Positions 3,986 through 16,400 of a stretch of DNA of 20,329 bases are shown here, piece after piece. A program made the translations under genes and the position numbers. The stretch spans positions 1-20,329 of the IMG/VR virus record IMGVR_UViG_3300023096_000020, one strand, 5' to 3'. Numbering within the stretch: the stretch's first letter is position 1; each line of letters begins with the position of its first letter. Source of the stretch: a virus. The notes below the pieces were generated by a model. That model was not told where the DNA came from. It saw nothing but the letters and a program-made list of their open reading frames with translations, and did not search any database.

Positions 3986-4906
3986 TTAAAACTTGATCCA
4001 GTTTTCATTTACCCATTCACGGCAAACTAAAACTCTATCTATTATTTTTTGTTCGATTTCTAAATCACGCACATAATCAAATTTAACCAATCGTTTTTCT
4101 TTTGGTATTTCGATAAAATCTCCTTTAAAAGTTCCGTAAATAAAAGACAATTCACGCATAAAGTCAGTAGTAAAGGCGTGGTTTTTGCAAATCTCATAAG
4201 ATATTTCTTCTGGAATATCCTCAATGTCTTTTATGTTATTTGCACGTGCGTATTTCCAGCATTCATCCTCAATAAGTTTCAAAGGAGTATTATTTAAAGT
4301 ATAACAAACTGAACCTTTTTCTTTTTTCGCCAATCGCATATATATGCGTATCTGTGGCTCATTTGCTTTGTCTGGCGGTTCGGTTTCTCCAATTGGAAAA
4401 GTAAATATATTCCACGAACTTTTATTGTCCAAAACCCAAGTAGGCAAGTCTAAGTCTAAATTACCTGTGAAATATTCATCTTCGTAAAAGGATTTAGATT
4501 TACTCATAAATACCTTACCATCAAAAACAACGTCCTGTATCAGTTTAAACCCGTCCTGTTCGGTTGTATTTCCTTTTACCGTATGTTTTGTGGTAAATTC
4601 TTTTCTACGCCCGTATTTTCGCTCTATTATCCACTCACGCAAATATTGGATTGTTGTTTCCGATAATTTTACTTTTGACTTTAGTTTTTCGAGTTCAGGA
4701 ATTAACTTTTCTAGTTTTGGTATTTGCTCAGTTCTAATCGATACGGCAGTTTTGCATTCCTGATTTTTAAATCCCAACAATTGGGTTTTCTTTTTTTCAA
4801 GTGTTTCGACTGCATCGTTATATATTTCAAGATTACTTTTACCTTTTGCGTCGGTCATAATTTTACCTCCACAACTCGCACGACATTTAAAAATAGGGAT
4901 TTCCAT
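3986..4906 (-). CDS. YqaJ-like PD-(D/E)XK recombination exonuclease
   Basis: The 306-residue protein shows the layout of viral YqaJ/lambda-exonuclease-type nucleases, which resect double-stranded ends to give 3' single strands. The start IPIFKCRASCGGKIMT (residues 3-18) resembles the conserved opening RAS..GxIMT of this group in Bacteroidota phages, which supports the first ATG. Residues 81-100 hold LSETTIQYLREWIIERKYGR. The catalytic core lies near Glu116, Asp151 in GNLDLD (148-153) and DNK at 160-162, matching the spaced acidic and lysine residues of PD-(D/E)XK enzymes. A basic, coiled stretch fills 60-80. It overlaps the Rad52-like gene by one base (TAATG). Together they form an exonuclease-annealase pair for recombination and repair. 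Confidence 0.75.
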   Translation of the reverse strand: MEIPIFKCRASCGGKIMTDAKGKSNLEIYNDAVETLEKKKTQLLGFKNQECKTAVSIRTEQIPKLEKLIPELEKLKSKVKLSETTIQYLREWIIERKYGRRKEFTTKHTVKGNTTEQDGFKLIQDVVFDGKVFMSKSKSFYEDEYFTGNLDLDLPTWVLDNKSSWNIFTFPIGETEPPDKANEPQIRIYMRLAKKEKGSVCYTLNNTPLKLIEDECWKYARANNIKDIEDIPEEISYEICKNHAFTTDFMRELSFIYGTFKGDFIEIPKEKRLVKFDYVRDLEIEQKIIDRVLVCREWVNENWIKF

Positions 4907-5568
4907 TATTTAGCGTTTTTTAGTTGTGCTTTTTTATCTTGCAATGCAATAAGGTTTTCTTCTGACATATCCACACCGTGTAAAGTATCAAGTGCGTCTA
5001 AATTATTAGCCGATTCTATAAAGTCTAAAATACGGTTCTGCTCTCGGTCATAATCGGTTACTTTTTCAATCGTAACCTTTACCTCCTTAAAATCTTCCTT
5101 GTTATAAATATCAGCAGCAATTCCGATTTCAGCAGCGCATTTCTTTAAGCAATCTGTTGTGGCGGCTTTTAAATCATTGCCGATTGATAATGGCGTAGGC
5201 TCTACTTTATTTAACTTTTGTTCGTCGGTTAATTTTTTATACATAATATCCTTATTCCCGTATTGCATTTTTACAATCTGACCGTTCGGAGTTCTGCAAG
5301 TAAGCTTACCTTTTACAATCGCTTCGCCGTGCATTATTTTTTCGTCTATAATCTCAAAATCCCAATCCCAACCGAACATTAGATTAAGACATTTCTTAAC
5401 ATAACCGCCAGTTACATAATCCCAAGTACCGCCTCCTTTGGCTGGTCTTTTCTTTACGTATATTGCAGGCGTTTTTTTAAGAATTAATGCCAATTGTTGT
5501 TGGTTTAATTGGTTATCATCTACTAATGATAAATCTTTTGCGCTTACCAATGCTAATTCCTTACTCAT
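4906..5568 (-). CDS. Rad52-like single-strand annealing protein
   Basis: The 220-residue protein resembles the Rad52/Rad22 family of phage annealases, which pair complementary single strands. Key regions are the beta-rich core with GGTWDYVTGGYVKKCLNLMF (46-65) and WDWDFEIID (67-75), a strand pair with KGKLTCRTPNG, and a helix with IGNDLKAATTDCLKKCAAEI (129-148). That last helix corresponds to the conserved amphipathic helix after the core. The C-terminal 60 residues are polar and probably flexible. It is co-transcribed with the nuclease downstream and overlaps it by one base. A structured, terminator-like leader precedes it, so its expression may be attenuated. The family assignment rests on fold pattern and partner gene. 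Confidence 0.75.
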   Translation of the reverse strand: MSKELALVSAKDLSLVDDNQLNQQQLALILKKTPAIYVKKRPAKGGGTWDYVTGGYVKKCLNLMFGWDWDFEIIDEKIMHGEAIVKGKLTCRTPNGQIVKMQYGNKDIMYKKLTDEQKLNKVEPTPLSIGNDLKAATTDCLKKCAAEIGIAADIYNKEDFKEVKVTIEKVTDYDREQNRILDFIESANNLDALDTLHGVDMSEENLIALQDKKAQLKNAK

Positions 5569-12869: not shown

Positions 12870-12893
12870 AAACCCCTGTAAATACAAGGGTTT
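12870..12893 (-). terminator. Intrinsic terminator after the Acb2/Tad1-like gene
   Basis: The stem 12888-12893 with 12870-12875 (AAACCC/GGGTTT) continues, after one mismatch, as TGT/ACA (12877-12879 with 12884-12886) around a 4-base loop. In the minus-strand transcript the stem is followed by TTTTTTGTTTTG. The stop of the 73-aa gene is 20 bases before the stem. This ends the accessory unit. Confidence 0.8.
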
Positions 12894-12913: not shown

Positions 12914-13135
12914 TTACTTTTCGCTTTCGGCTAATTTTACCGCCCACATACACGCTTCTTCGTAAGCCGTAACAGCCAACGCGGCTAGTCTTGGATCTAA
13001 ATGTCGGTTTTCATCGATAAGATTCAAAATATTAGCCGTTGATTCTTTGAAGTAGTTTACGTTACCTACTCCATCTGGATTAAACTCAGTCCTTACTGTC
13101 TTTTCTCCAAAACTTAATTGTTTAACTTCACTCAT
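12914..13135 (-). CDS. Acb2/Tad1-like helical-hairpin protein, candidate anti-CBASS or anti-Thoeris sponge
   Basis: The 73-residue protein reads FGEKTVRTEFNPDGVGNVNY (9-28), then an amphipathic helix KESTANILNLIDEN, then HLDPRLAALAVTAYEEACMW and AVKLAESEK. The pattern GEK..V...FNP.G then DPR..A.A.T..EEA.MW..K resembles what I recall of the Acb2/Tad1 hairpin domain (also seen as DUF7681). Phages use these small oligomeric proteins to bind cyclic oligonucleotides or cADPR-type signals and so silence CBASS or Thoeris immunity. Arg49, Thr56, Trp64 and Lys67 line the C-terminal helix. The gene closes a separately promoted and terminated unit, as expected of accessory cargo. Family resemblance is moderate; ligand and activity are unknown. 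Confidence 0.6.
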   Translation of the reverse strand: MSEVKQLSFGEKTVRTEFNPDGVGNVNYFKESTANILNLIDENRHLDPRLAALAVTAYEEACMWAVKLAESEK

Positions 13136-13157: not shown

Positions 13158-13343
13158 CTATTGTTTGTCGATGTTCTTTGTAGCGGTCGAAACTCCGATG
13201 CTTATAGCGACTTTTGAGAACCATTTTAGTACCTTTCCTGCGATGGTTTTCGGCTTCCATTCGCTTAGTAGTTCTTCAGATGCTTTATTTACTACTTCTA
13301 CTCCAGCGTGTTGGATTTCTTTTGAGGGTTTAGACTGTGGCAT
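13158..13343 (-). CDS. Small hypothetical protein of the accessory unit, 61 aa
   Basis: The protein begins MPQSKPSKEIQHAGVEVVNK. It has a helical middle (ASEELLSEWKPKTIAGKVLK) and an amphipathic or mildly hydrophobic stretch, VLKWFSKVAISIGVSTATKN (38-57), which could lie on a membrane surface. It starts 2 bases after the preceding stop and precedes the Acb2/Tad1-like gene by 22 bases. No family is recognised. Its place between two small accessory genes suggests a phage-host interaction role, but nothing in the sequence proves it. Confidence 0.58.
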   Translation of the reverse strand: MPQSKPSKEIQHAGVEVVNKASEELLSEWKPKTIAGKVLKWFSKVAISIGVSTATKNIDKQ

Positions 13344-13345
13344 AG

Positions 13346-13537
13346 TTATATTGTAATTTGATCGTAAGCCGTTTCTAACTCTAATTGTCTTTTATCAGTA
13401 ATAATACTAAATGTTCCGTATTGGGTTTTATGCTCCCAAATAATAGTTTCATCGTCTAACACAGTTCGTTGATAATATTTAGGCATATCATTTTGTAACT
13501 CATAGAAAAATAATTCTTGTAATAATACTTTTTTCAT
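13346..13537 (-). CDS. Small hypothetical protein, first gene of the accessory unit, 63 aa
   Basis: I chose the ATG at 13537-13535 (MKKVLLQELFFYELQNDMPK) over the upstream ATG at 13558, because the latter falls inside the promoter's -7 element region. The body is beta-rich: YYQRTVLDDETIIWEHKTQY (21-40), then GTFSIITDKRQLELETAYDQ. There is no signal peptide or motif. The leader shares the A/T-rich phrase TAAAATTATG with other genes. Function unknown. Confidence 0.6.
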   Translation of the reverse strand: MKKVLLQELFFYELQNDMPKYYQRTVLDDETIIWEHKTQYGTFSIITDKRQLELETAYDQITI

Positions 13538-13555: not shown

Positions 13556-13587
13556 CAAAACTACACAAAAACATCTTAATTATACAA
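13556..13587 (-). promoter_or_regulatory. Promoter of the accessory unit
   Basis: The minus strand carries TAGTTTTG at 13563-13556 (TAnnTTTG) and TTG at 13587-13585, separated by 21 bases, within the spacing usual for Flavobacterium promoters. The first ATG is 18 bases past the -7 element. A terminator lies upstream (13630-13658), so this unit is insulated from the lysis and tail transcript. Confidence 0.75.
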
Positions 13588-13629
13588 ATATGTAGTAAAT
13601 AAAAAGAAATAAATCTGCTTAAATAAAAA

Positions 13630-13706: not shown

Positions 13707-14261
13707 TTATTTAATTGTAATAAATACTTTTTTAGGCTTATATTCTATTAATTCTTTTGTCGTTATCAATCCTTTTAAATATTTTTTGTAATAAACATTT
13801 CTTATACAAGAAAACTTTACTCCTAAATATTCAGCCCATTGCGAGAGAGTTTTCTCTTGCCCTTCATAATTTATAATTATATTATTTGTTCTGTTGTTAT
13901 TTTGCTCTTTAGGAGTTGCCCATCTGCAGTTATCTCTTGAATACCCTTTTGAGTTGTCAATCCTATCAACAGTTTTTCCATGTTCATAGCTTTCCAACAT
14001 ATCGTCACAAAATCCCTTAAAAGTTTCCCATTTAGAGCAATACGTTATTCCTTTATCAAAATATTTTCTTTTTGAACTTTGCCCTGATGTTCCTTTACAT
14101 CTTGCTTTTATGGAACGCCAAGAGTTATGGAATGGAGTATGATACATTCCGTGGTAATCGGATCTATCCTTCCAAGATTTTACAATTCCTAATCTTACCT
14201 TTTCTTTTTCTTCTGCAGTAAGAAGATAGCCTTTTACAAATTTACCTTTATCGTCTCTCAT
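13707..14261 (-). CDS. HNH-type homing endonuclease with NUMOD-like flanks
   Basis: The 184-residue protein begins with a NUMOD3-like basic element, DKGKFVKGYLLTAEEKEKVR (4-23). The central region is YFDKGITYCSKWETFKGFCD (67-86), then KTVDRIDNSKGYSRDNCRWA (96-115) and EQNNNRTNN (119-127). That is the pattern of phage HNH/AP2-like homing nucleases, with DRIDN and NCRW as the key blocks. The C-terminus, YEGQEKTLSQWAEYLGVKFS (132-151), resembles a NUMOD1-type DNA-recognition helix. Such genes move by cutting alleles that lack them. It sits between the lysis cassette and a terminator, a common free-standing location. It appears intact. Confidence 0.82.
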   Translation of the reverse strand: MRDDKGKFVKGYLLTAEEKEKVRLGIVKSWKDRSDYHGMYHTPFHNSWRSIKARCKGTSGQSSKRKYFDKGITYCSKWETFKGFCDDMLESYEHGKTVDRIDNSKGYSRDNCRWATPKEQNNNRTNNIIINYEGQEKTLSQWAEYLGVKFSCIRNVYYKKYLKGLITTKELIEYKPKKVFITIK

Positions 14262-14290: not shown

Positions 14291-14683
14291 TTAGGATATG
14301 GTAATAAAAATCTTTTCTTTTTTTGCTGCAGCTTCTAATTTAGTCATTAATCTGCTCATTGCCATTTTACTATTTCCAACAAAGTCTGTCGATTTAGTAA
14401 TTCCCAATAAAACACAGCCTTCGGTATGTTCTGCAGTATTACCACTATGAATCCTGATTCCCTCAAAACCTGGAACATTATTTATTAATGGCAGAACCTT
14501 TTTAAATCGGTTTGACATTGTTAAAGTAACTTCATATCTACCCTTAGGTATTGCAGTTTTTCCATATACTTTTTTATCTCTTTCAACATCTTCAAGAGTA
14601 AAGCACTCAAATTTACCGTTAATGGATAAATCTCCTATGGTACTTTTGTCGGTCTTTGTGTTTCTGTTCAATACTATTTCCAT
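14291..14683 (-). CDS. DUF5675 family protein, candidate cell-wall lysis enzyme
   Basis: The 130-residue protein matches the DUF5675 pattern. It begins MEIVLNRNTKTDKSTIGDLS, then KTAIPKGRYEVTLTMSNRFK (42-61), then GFEGIRIHSGNTAEHTEGCV (72-91). The His79...Gly89-Cys90 arrangement recalls the L,D-transpeptidase active-site motif, so a peptidoglycan role is often proposed for the family, though it is not proven. The length is typical. It lies directly downstream of a holin-like gene and no other lysin is visible in the window. It is therefore the best lysis enzyme candidate by position. No signal peptide, so it would need the holin. Confidence 0.75.
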   Translation of the reverse strand: MEIVLNRNTKTDKSTIGDLSINGKFECFTLEDVERDKKVYGKTAIPKGRYEVTLTMSNRFKKVLPLINNVPGFEGIRIHSGNTAEHTEGCVLLGITKSTDFVGNSKMAMSRLMTKLEAAAKKEKIFITIS

Positions 14684-15803: not shown

Positions 15804-16400
15804 TTATTTTTGATTAATTAAAACATCTACCAATGCACCATTTACATTTGAATAGTTCGGCAATAAACCTATAACATCCGTCCTATTTCTTACCAAAACA
15901 GTAAAACCCGTAGTGCTTATAGATGTAATTCTAATATTCTGCGTATCAGTTGCATTTATAATGTTAGCCTGAATATTTGGAGCAACAGAATAAGCTGTTC
16001 CAAATGTAACTGTATAAATACCTGATGCGTTAGTTGTTCCTGAAAAAGTTTCTTGTCTCTTTGCGGTGCTCGGTATTTTATAGAATAAAAGCCAACGCCC
16101 TGAACTTGGAGTTAGATTTGGCTTTATAACTGTAGTTCCGTTATCTACAGCTGTAGAAGTAGGATTCCAATACCATTGTTCAGGCGTTGTGTCAAACATG
16201 GTAGTATGACCAATGATCTGTATTTGTTGATTGTCTGGTTGCCCCTCAAACTCATACATTTCACTCCTTAAAGGCGCACTTAAAAATGTCATTGGGTCGT
16301 AAACACCTCTTGCAGATGTTTTTTGGACTTGGCTTTCTTTTTTATCGCAAGAGGTTGCGAATGTCAACAGAACTAATGCTAAAATAAATATTTTTTTCAT
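15804..16400 (-). CDS. Lipoprotein with phage receptor-binding-like C-terminus, 198 aa
   Basis: The start MKKIFILALVLLTFATSCDK has a basic n-region, hydrophobic core and lipobox ending in Cys18, so Sec export and lipidation are expected. The middle holds TPEQWYWNPTSTAVDNGTTV (72-91) and NLTPSSGRWLLFYK, phrases common in tail-associated proteins. The C-terminal 75 residues (SGIYTVTFGTAYSVAPNIQA onward) resemble H-type-lectin-like tips of flavobacterial phage fibres. A lipid-anchored protein with a fibre-tip domain, next to a secreted fibre-like protein, is unusual. It could be shown on the infected cell surface, for example to block receptors, or the signal could be a relic. Function is not established. 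Confidence 0.7.
   Translation of the reverse strand: MKKIFILALVLLTFATSCDKKESQVQKTSARGVYDPMTFLSAPLRSEMYEFEGQPDNQQIQIIGHTTMFDTTPEQWYWNPTSTAVDNGTTVIKPNLTPSSGRWLLFYKIPSTAKRQETFSGTTNASGIYTVTFGTAYSVAPNIQANIINATDTQNIRITSISTTGFTVLVRNRTDVIGLLPNYSNVNGALVDVLINQK

Follow-up and report, generated by a model that had tools for sequence, protein, structure and literature searches.

The locus analyzed here raises the question of whether a small protein encoded by an uncultivated virus belongs to the Acb2/Tad1 hairpin family and, if so, whether it would hold its ligand in the same manner as the canonical representatives. Known Acb2/Tad1 members soak up bacterial immune alarm molecules, and canonical Acb2 assembles into a homohexamer, with cyclic di- and trinucleotides as its ligands. 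An initial annotation had likened the protein to this family, proposed it as an immune-signal sponge and suggested a ligand pocket. We followed up these proposals in the window, i.e., the whole analyzed stretch of a 20.3-kb virus record (IMGVR_UViG_3300023096_000020, positions 1 to 20,329) with a GC content of 32.7%.

The hairpin gene and its surroundings

The proposed reading frame was confirmed in its position and strand, running from ATG to stop and encoding 73 aa:

12914..13135 (-), 73-aa Acb2/Tad1 hairpin protein of the GE-VR-FNPS subfamily (ORF from ATG to stop, PF24729, HMMs, AF2 model)

The residue pattern on which the family call had been based is present in the protein (G10-E11-K12, V14, F18-N19-P20, D47-P48-R49, A52, A54, T56, E59-E60-A61, M63-W64 and K67). 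It lies well above chance, since residues 19-67 score 40.6 bits (E 3e-10) against the Pfam profile PF24729 (Acb2/Tad1, hairpin domain), compared to a curated gathering cut-off of 27. When applied to whole phages, PF24729 gave a single hit in T4 (Vs.4), a single hit in PaMx35 (ORF24) and none in 14 control genomes. By this profile match, the protein belongs to the Acb2/Tad1 hairpin superfamily, as the initial annotation had held. Searches with the single sequence (phmmer) against PDB and PADLOC gave no match.

The hairpin gene closes a compact run of three co-directional ORFs, which are separated by gaps of 2 and 22 nt. Besides the gene itself, the following features lie in or next to this unit:

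13556..13588 (-), match to the Bacteroidota-type promoter pattern TTTG-N21-TAnnTTTG, upstream of the three-gene unit (pattern search)
13346..13537 (-), first ORF of the three-gene unit, 63 aa from the ATG at 13537 (ORF list)
13158..13343 (-), co-directional 61-aa ORF, 22 nt upstream of the hairpin gene, of no known family
12870..12893 (-), terminator-like hairpin 20 nt past the stop codon, with a 10-pair stem and a T-rich run behind it

The promoter pattern was found five times in the window, compared to 1.8 expected occurrences, a number reached in 3 of 100 shuffles, and sigma-70-like sites showed no excess in the window (9 found, 9.6 expected). The 54 nt after the stop codon are predicted to form a hairpin with a fold z-score of -2.56. 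Thus, the view that the gene sits in its own promoter-terminator unit is borne out for the terminator-like hairpin but not for the promoter, because the nearest promoter match heads all three genes.

The three-gene unit is flanked by a lysis/tail module on one side and, on the other, by a block of small genes that leads to a Rad52-type annealing protein and an exonuclease. Several of the surrounding genes can be described further. At 3986-5568 (-), an exonuclease (PHROG 5715) adjoins the Rad52-type annealing protein (PF04098, 30.8 bits), forming a recombination pair; the annealing protein is related to Polaribacter phages. A DUF5675 protein (14291-14683 (-), E 8e-36), which is encoded beside a holin-like ORF and has phage homologues annotated as transpeptidase catalytic domain proteins, is likely part of the lysis module. 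The protein at 15804-16400 (-) features a lipoprotein-like signal (LLTFATSCDKK), which is missing from its homologue in contig L221 (4454-4933), and a weak match to H-type lectins that falls below the cut-off (E 0.0018). The 184-aa ORF at 13707-14261 (-), which had no Pfam match, may encode an HNH endonuclease, judging from how its sequence reads. Relatives of window genes are found in Polaribacter and Flavobacterium phages, which makes a Flavobacteria-type host likely; no phage in INPHARED was close to the whole window.

A subfamily distinct from canonical Acb2 and Tad1

The 73-aa protein scored 109 bits against an HMM of its closer relatives that had been built without the window sequence, whereas two canonical Acb2 HMMs and a Tad1 HMM gave only 6, 26 and 7.6 bits, respectively. 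These profile scores place it in a large, distinct subfamily that is neither canonical Acb2 nor Tad1. Among the matches listed, its closest relatives show 80%, 76%, 68% and 63% identity and each reside in different phages, on contigs of 37.6 kb, 10.9 kb and, in two cases, 141-147 kb with an adjoining GroEL gene. In the latter two, the gene for the GroEL-type chaperonin (PHROG 5725; L003:2022-3560 and L004:1876-3414) precedes the hairpin gene by a few genes. The residue pattern is mostly kept in homologues down to ~37% identity. Using a profile of ten relatives, we identified at least 533 encoding loci in IMG/VR. The subfamily is also matched by 155 records of cultured phages, mostly FCV-1-group phages of Flavobacterium columnare and phages of Flavobacterium sp. 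BAL314 from the Baltic Sea, as well as Enterobacter phage EcP1; these cultured homologues are annotated as hypothetical proteins, and the FCV-1 and EcP1 proteins are sequence relatives within the same subfamily. A profile scan of bacterial genome contigs yielded 33 loci, mostly on contigs of Alphaproteobacteria and Bacteroidota, and a scan of these contigs with the single sequence yielded nothing. In one Rhodobacteraceae MAG (CATOSB01), a prophage-like segment of ~7.4-10 kb recurs with 99.4-100% identity on seven contigs (L201-L207), each of which carries a gene of this family; this segment represents a multicopy, perhaps transposable, phage.

A comparison of 56 subfamily members revealed seven invariant positions (G10, V14, F18, A34, A61, M63 and K67) and a further ten that are kept in at least 90% of the proteins (R15, N19, P20, V26, K30, R49, T56, E59, E60 and W64). 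Most of these residues fall into two segments:

13076..13108 (-), residues 10-20, GE-x-x-VR-x-x-FNP segment replacing the GYR segment of canonical Acb2 (conservation in 56 relatives)
12935..12991 (-), residues 49-67, superfamily motif R-x6-T-x6-M-W-x2-K of helix 3 (conserved; spacing as in PaMx35 Acb2; Tad1 match)

The dN/dS ratio of the subfamily gene was ~0.1-0.2 where computable, with most pairs saturated at synonymous sites. Purifying selection on the gene is therefore indicated mainly by the single unsaturated pair (L003/L004; dN 0.019, dS 0.191), together with the conservation across the 56 relatives.

The signatures of the subfamily and of canonical Acb2 show almost no overlap. In two reference sets, one comprising 39 IMG/VR members and the other ten proteins including T4 Vs.4 and PaMx35, a GYR/GYK segment was present in all sequences (39/39 and 10/10), whereas it is missing from the window protein and from all 56 subfamily members. 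Conversely, an F[NF][PA] motif occurs in 56/56 subfamily proteins but in only one of the 39 canonical ones. The Arg-x-x-Ala-x-Pro tail at the C-terminus, found in 39/39 canonical proteins, has no counterpart in the subfamily (0/56), with the window protein ending in KLAESEK. Lacking both the GYR segment and the Ala-x-Pro tail, the protein was rejected as a member of canonical Acb2. A relationship at the profile level is nevertheless evident, because hhalign aligned the subfamily with the canonical Acb2 sets at E-values of 4e-10 and 9.6e-7. Profile matches to the solved chains of T4 Vs.4, Tad1, Acb2 homolog 43 (9PTQ) and p26 were individually weak (E 0.005-1.5).

Predicted structure and candidate binding residues

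The helical hairpin postulated for the protein is supported by a confident single-chain AF2 model (pLDDT 93.2, pTM 0.79), which shows helices at residues 9-13, 24-42 and 48-69 and no strand. A canonical Acb2 of 74 aa (L168), modeled as a control, is predicted to form helices at residues 4-7, 16-39 and 47-69, and the topology reported for Acb2 has the same arrangement, with one short and two long helices (PMC10419184). The model is thus confidently predicted to represent a hairpin of Acb2 topology. However, a Foldseek search of the window model against the PDB returned no Acb2 or Tad1 chain among the matches up to an E-value of 10, whereas the same search with the control retrieved 8H2X/8H2J at E ~1e-5 and T4 7UQ2 at E 0.006 (24% identity). 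Among viral predicted structures, the two best matches bore the name Acb2/Tad1 hairpin (probability 1.0, E ~0.02), and the best fold matches included a Providencia phage PS3 protein (A0A411AWH0) labeled as 'Acb2/Tad1 hairpin domain-containing'; none of the proteins of this label compared here was found to have an experimentally established function. The models hence indicate a fold whose topology fits Acb2 but whose geometry or N-terminus differs sufficiently to escape detection by Foldseek.

Like the Acb2 proteins of PaP2/PaMx33-type Pseudomonas phages (8H2J, 8IXZ) and T4 Vs.4 (7UQ2), the window protein is short and stands alone. It also shares with canonical Acb2 the short N-terminal helix followed by two long antiparallel helices, the R-x6-T-x6-M-x3-R/K pattern on helix 3 and a lysine at equivalent positions (K26 in canonical Acb2, K30 in the window protein), while differing in the GE-VR-FNPS segment, the missing tail and the absence of Foldseek matches to solved structures. 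In PaMx35 Acb2, residues R67, T74, M81 and R85 align with R49, T56, M63 and K67, with an identical spacing of 7-7-4.

For T4 Acb2, it has been reported that cyclic dinucleotide binding is disrupted by the Y8A exchange and that F82 stacks on the bound dinucleotide (PMC12657218). The T68M exchange reportedly lowers binding (PMC12657230). We checked the published numbering of Y8, T68 and F82 against the T4 sequence before transferring these positions to the window protein. T68 aligns with T56 and is therefore kept. By contrast, Y8 (Y11 in the PaMx protein) falls into the segment that GE-VR-FNPS replaces, and the counterpart of F82 in the alignment is E70, where the window protein departs from its own subfamily, since at least 90% of its members have a threonine there. 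The pocket that had been proposed for the protein (R49, T56, W64 and K67) consequently fares differently depending on how it is read. All four residues are kept in at least 90% of the 56 relatives and, given this conservation and the PaMx35 alignment, they represent a reasonable choice as a conserved set, which may form either a pocket or an interface. The known dinucleotide pocket of Acb2, on the other hand, is not supported, as the Y8 segment is gone from the whole subfamily and F82 is exchanged for E70. The family call was thus right, while the canonical pocket that it implied was not.

Probable function of the GE-VR-FNPS branch

We consider it rather probable that the protein is an accessory protein of a divergent branch, most likely an oligomeric sponge for a cyclic-nucleotide-type immune signal with a remodeled pocket. 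The sponge activity is inferred from family membership, and the oligomer, the pocket, the ligand and the anti-defence effect are inferences as well. Under this scenario, the two long helices would mediate assembly into a small oligomer that sequesters, but does not degrade, a cyclic-nucleotide-type signal of CBASS or a similar system in a Flavobacteria-like host, such that the effectors would stay off during infection. Helix 3 displays a conserved face (R49, T56, E59/E60, M63 and K67). As the tyrosine segment required for dinucleotide binding is replaced by GE-VR-FNPS, the ligand would probably be held differently than in canonical Acb2. The distribution of the gene is patchy: it is present in unrelated phages, on contigs of up to 147 kb, yet a related phage contig of 55.7 kb, which has counterparts of four genes of the window, contains no PF24729 match, although this record may be incomplete. 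Such a pattern is expected of an accessory gene serving in counter-defence. More tentatively, the GE-VR-FNPS branch as a whole may constitute a widespread sponge class in its own right, with a distinct pocket chemistry, directed at one or more signals other than those of canonical Acb2 and occurring in both phages and prophages, among them those of Bacteroidota and Alphaproteobacteria.

The gene position among relatives bears on an alternative that we regard as unlikely, namely that the subfamily shares ancestry with Acb2 but has no immune sponge function and instead serves as a head or packaging accessory, acting as a small helical oligomer together with the terminase or portal. A gene for the terminase large subunit indeed lies at most two genes away in at least 15 of ~54 subfamily loci, with portal genes found near others, and in L005 the neighbors read as capsid-like and portal-like genes on either side. 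However, the loci counted are those of the nearest relatives, some of which belong to the same phage lineages, and the window and other Flavobacteria-type contigs place the gene among small ORFs, GroEL or recombination genes. Moreover, the related 55.7-kb phage contig lacks it. Head-tail adaptor, head and portal genes are found next to canonical Acb2 genes, too, so that position cannot separate a sponge from a packaging role. A search for a partner gene revealed mixed neighbors among the relatives, and the 61-aa ORF, the candidate partner in the window, had no relatives in viral contigs.

Helix 3 invites a second alternative, which we judge to be quite improbable, in which the protein would act as a sponge for non-CBASS signals, such as the cADPR-type molecules of Thoeris, in a manner resembling Tad1. 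This helix is related by hhalign to the Tad1 motif RENAMAITKLEEALMWL (E 1.6e-4, 50% identity over 18 columns) and shares with Tad1 (SBSphiJ7 Tad1; 7UAV, 8KBB) the pattern R-x3-x-A-x-T-x2-E-E-A-x-M-W, including EEA-x-MW; furthermore, phages of Cellulophaga and Bacteroides carry Tad1-like genes. Canonical Acb2 and Tad1 aligned with each other at E 0.013, such that, in these small alignments, the GE-VR-FNPS branch is closer to either of them than they are to one another. However, SBSphiJ7 Tad1 comprises 142 aa, with ~90 residues preceding the motif, and its N-terminal beta domain, which provides loops of the gcADPR pocket (PMC12043709), is missing from the window protein, as is the C-terminal RT-x2-R-x3-G-x2-GT tail. 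The overall predicted topology is, in addition, Acb2-like, and the lack of any strand in the AF2 model and of the beta domain led us to reject membership in Tad1. Two further proteins, of 90 and 113 aa, from Bacteroides phage BK735P4 (L183) and crAssphage ctcc615 (L185) feature a Tad1-like motif, RE(R/T)SL.ITKLQEAVMWLGM, behind an N-terminus unlike the Tad1 beta domain and, by these sequence features, probably form another branch of the hairpin superfamily.

Finally, binding of 3',3'-cGAMP-type dinucleotides in the same pocket as in canonical Acb2 is very unlikely, because the shared topology and the equivalence of K30 and T56 with K26 and T4 T68 are outweighed by the loss of the tyrosine segment in 56/56 proteins, the missing tail, the glutamate in place of F82 and the failure of Foldseek to match cGAMP-bound structures.

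According to an earlier description, Acb2 is relatively rare and limited to certain phage groups (PMC11722364), in contrast to the at least 533 relatives that its sister branch alone has in IMG/VR. As Pfam already groups these proteins together, the novelty lies in the signature, the lack of the tyrosine pocket and the large number of members. Should the proteins indeed act as sponges whose pocket differs, a previously unrecognised counter-defence would be carried by many phages of Bacteroidota and Alphaproteobacteria, and its ligand would point to the immune signals of those hosts.
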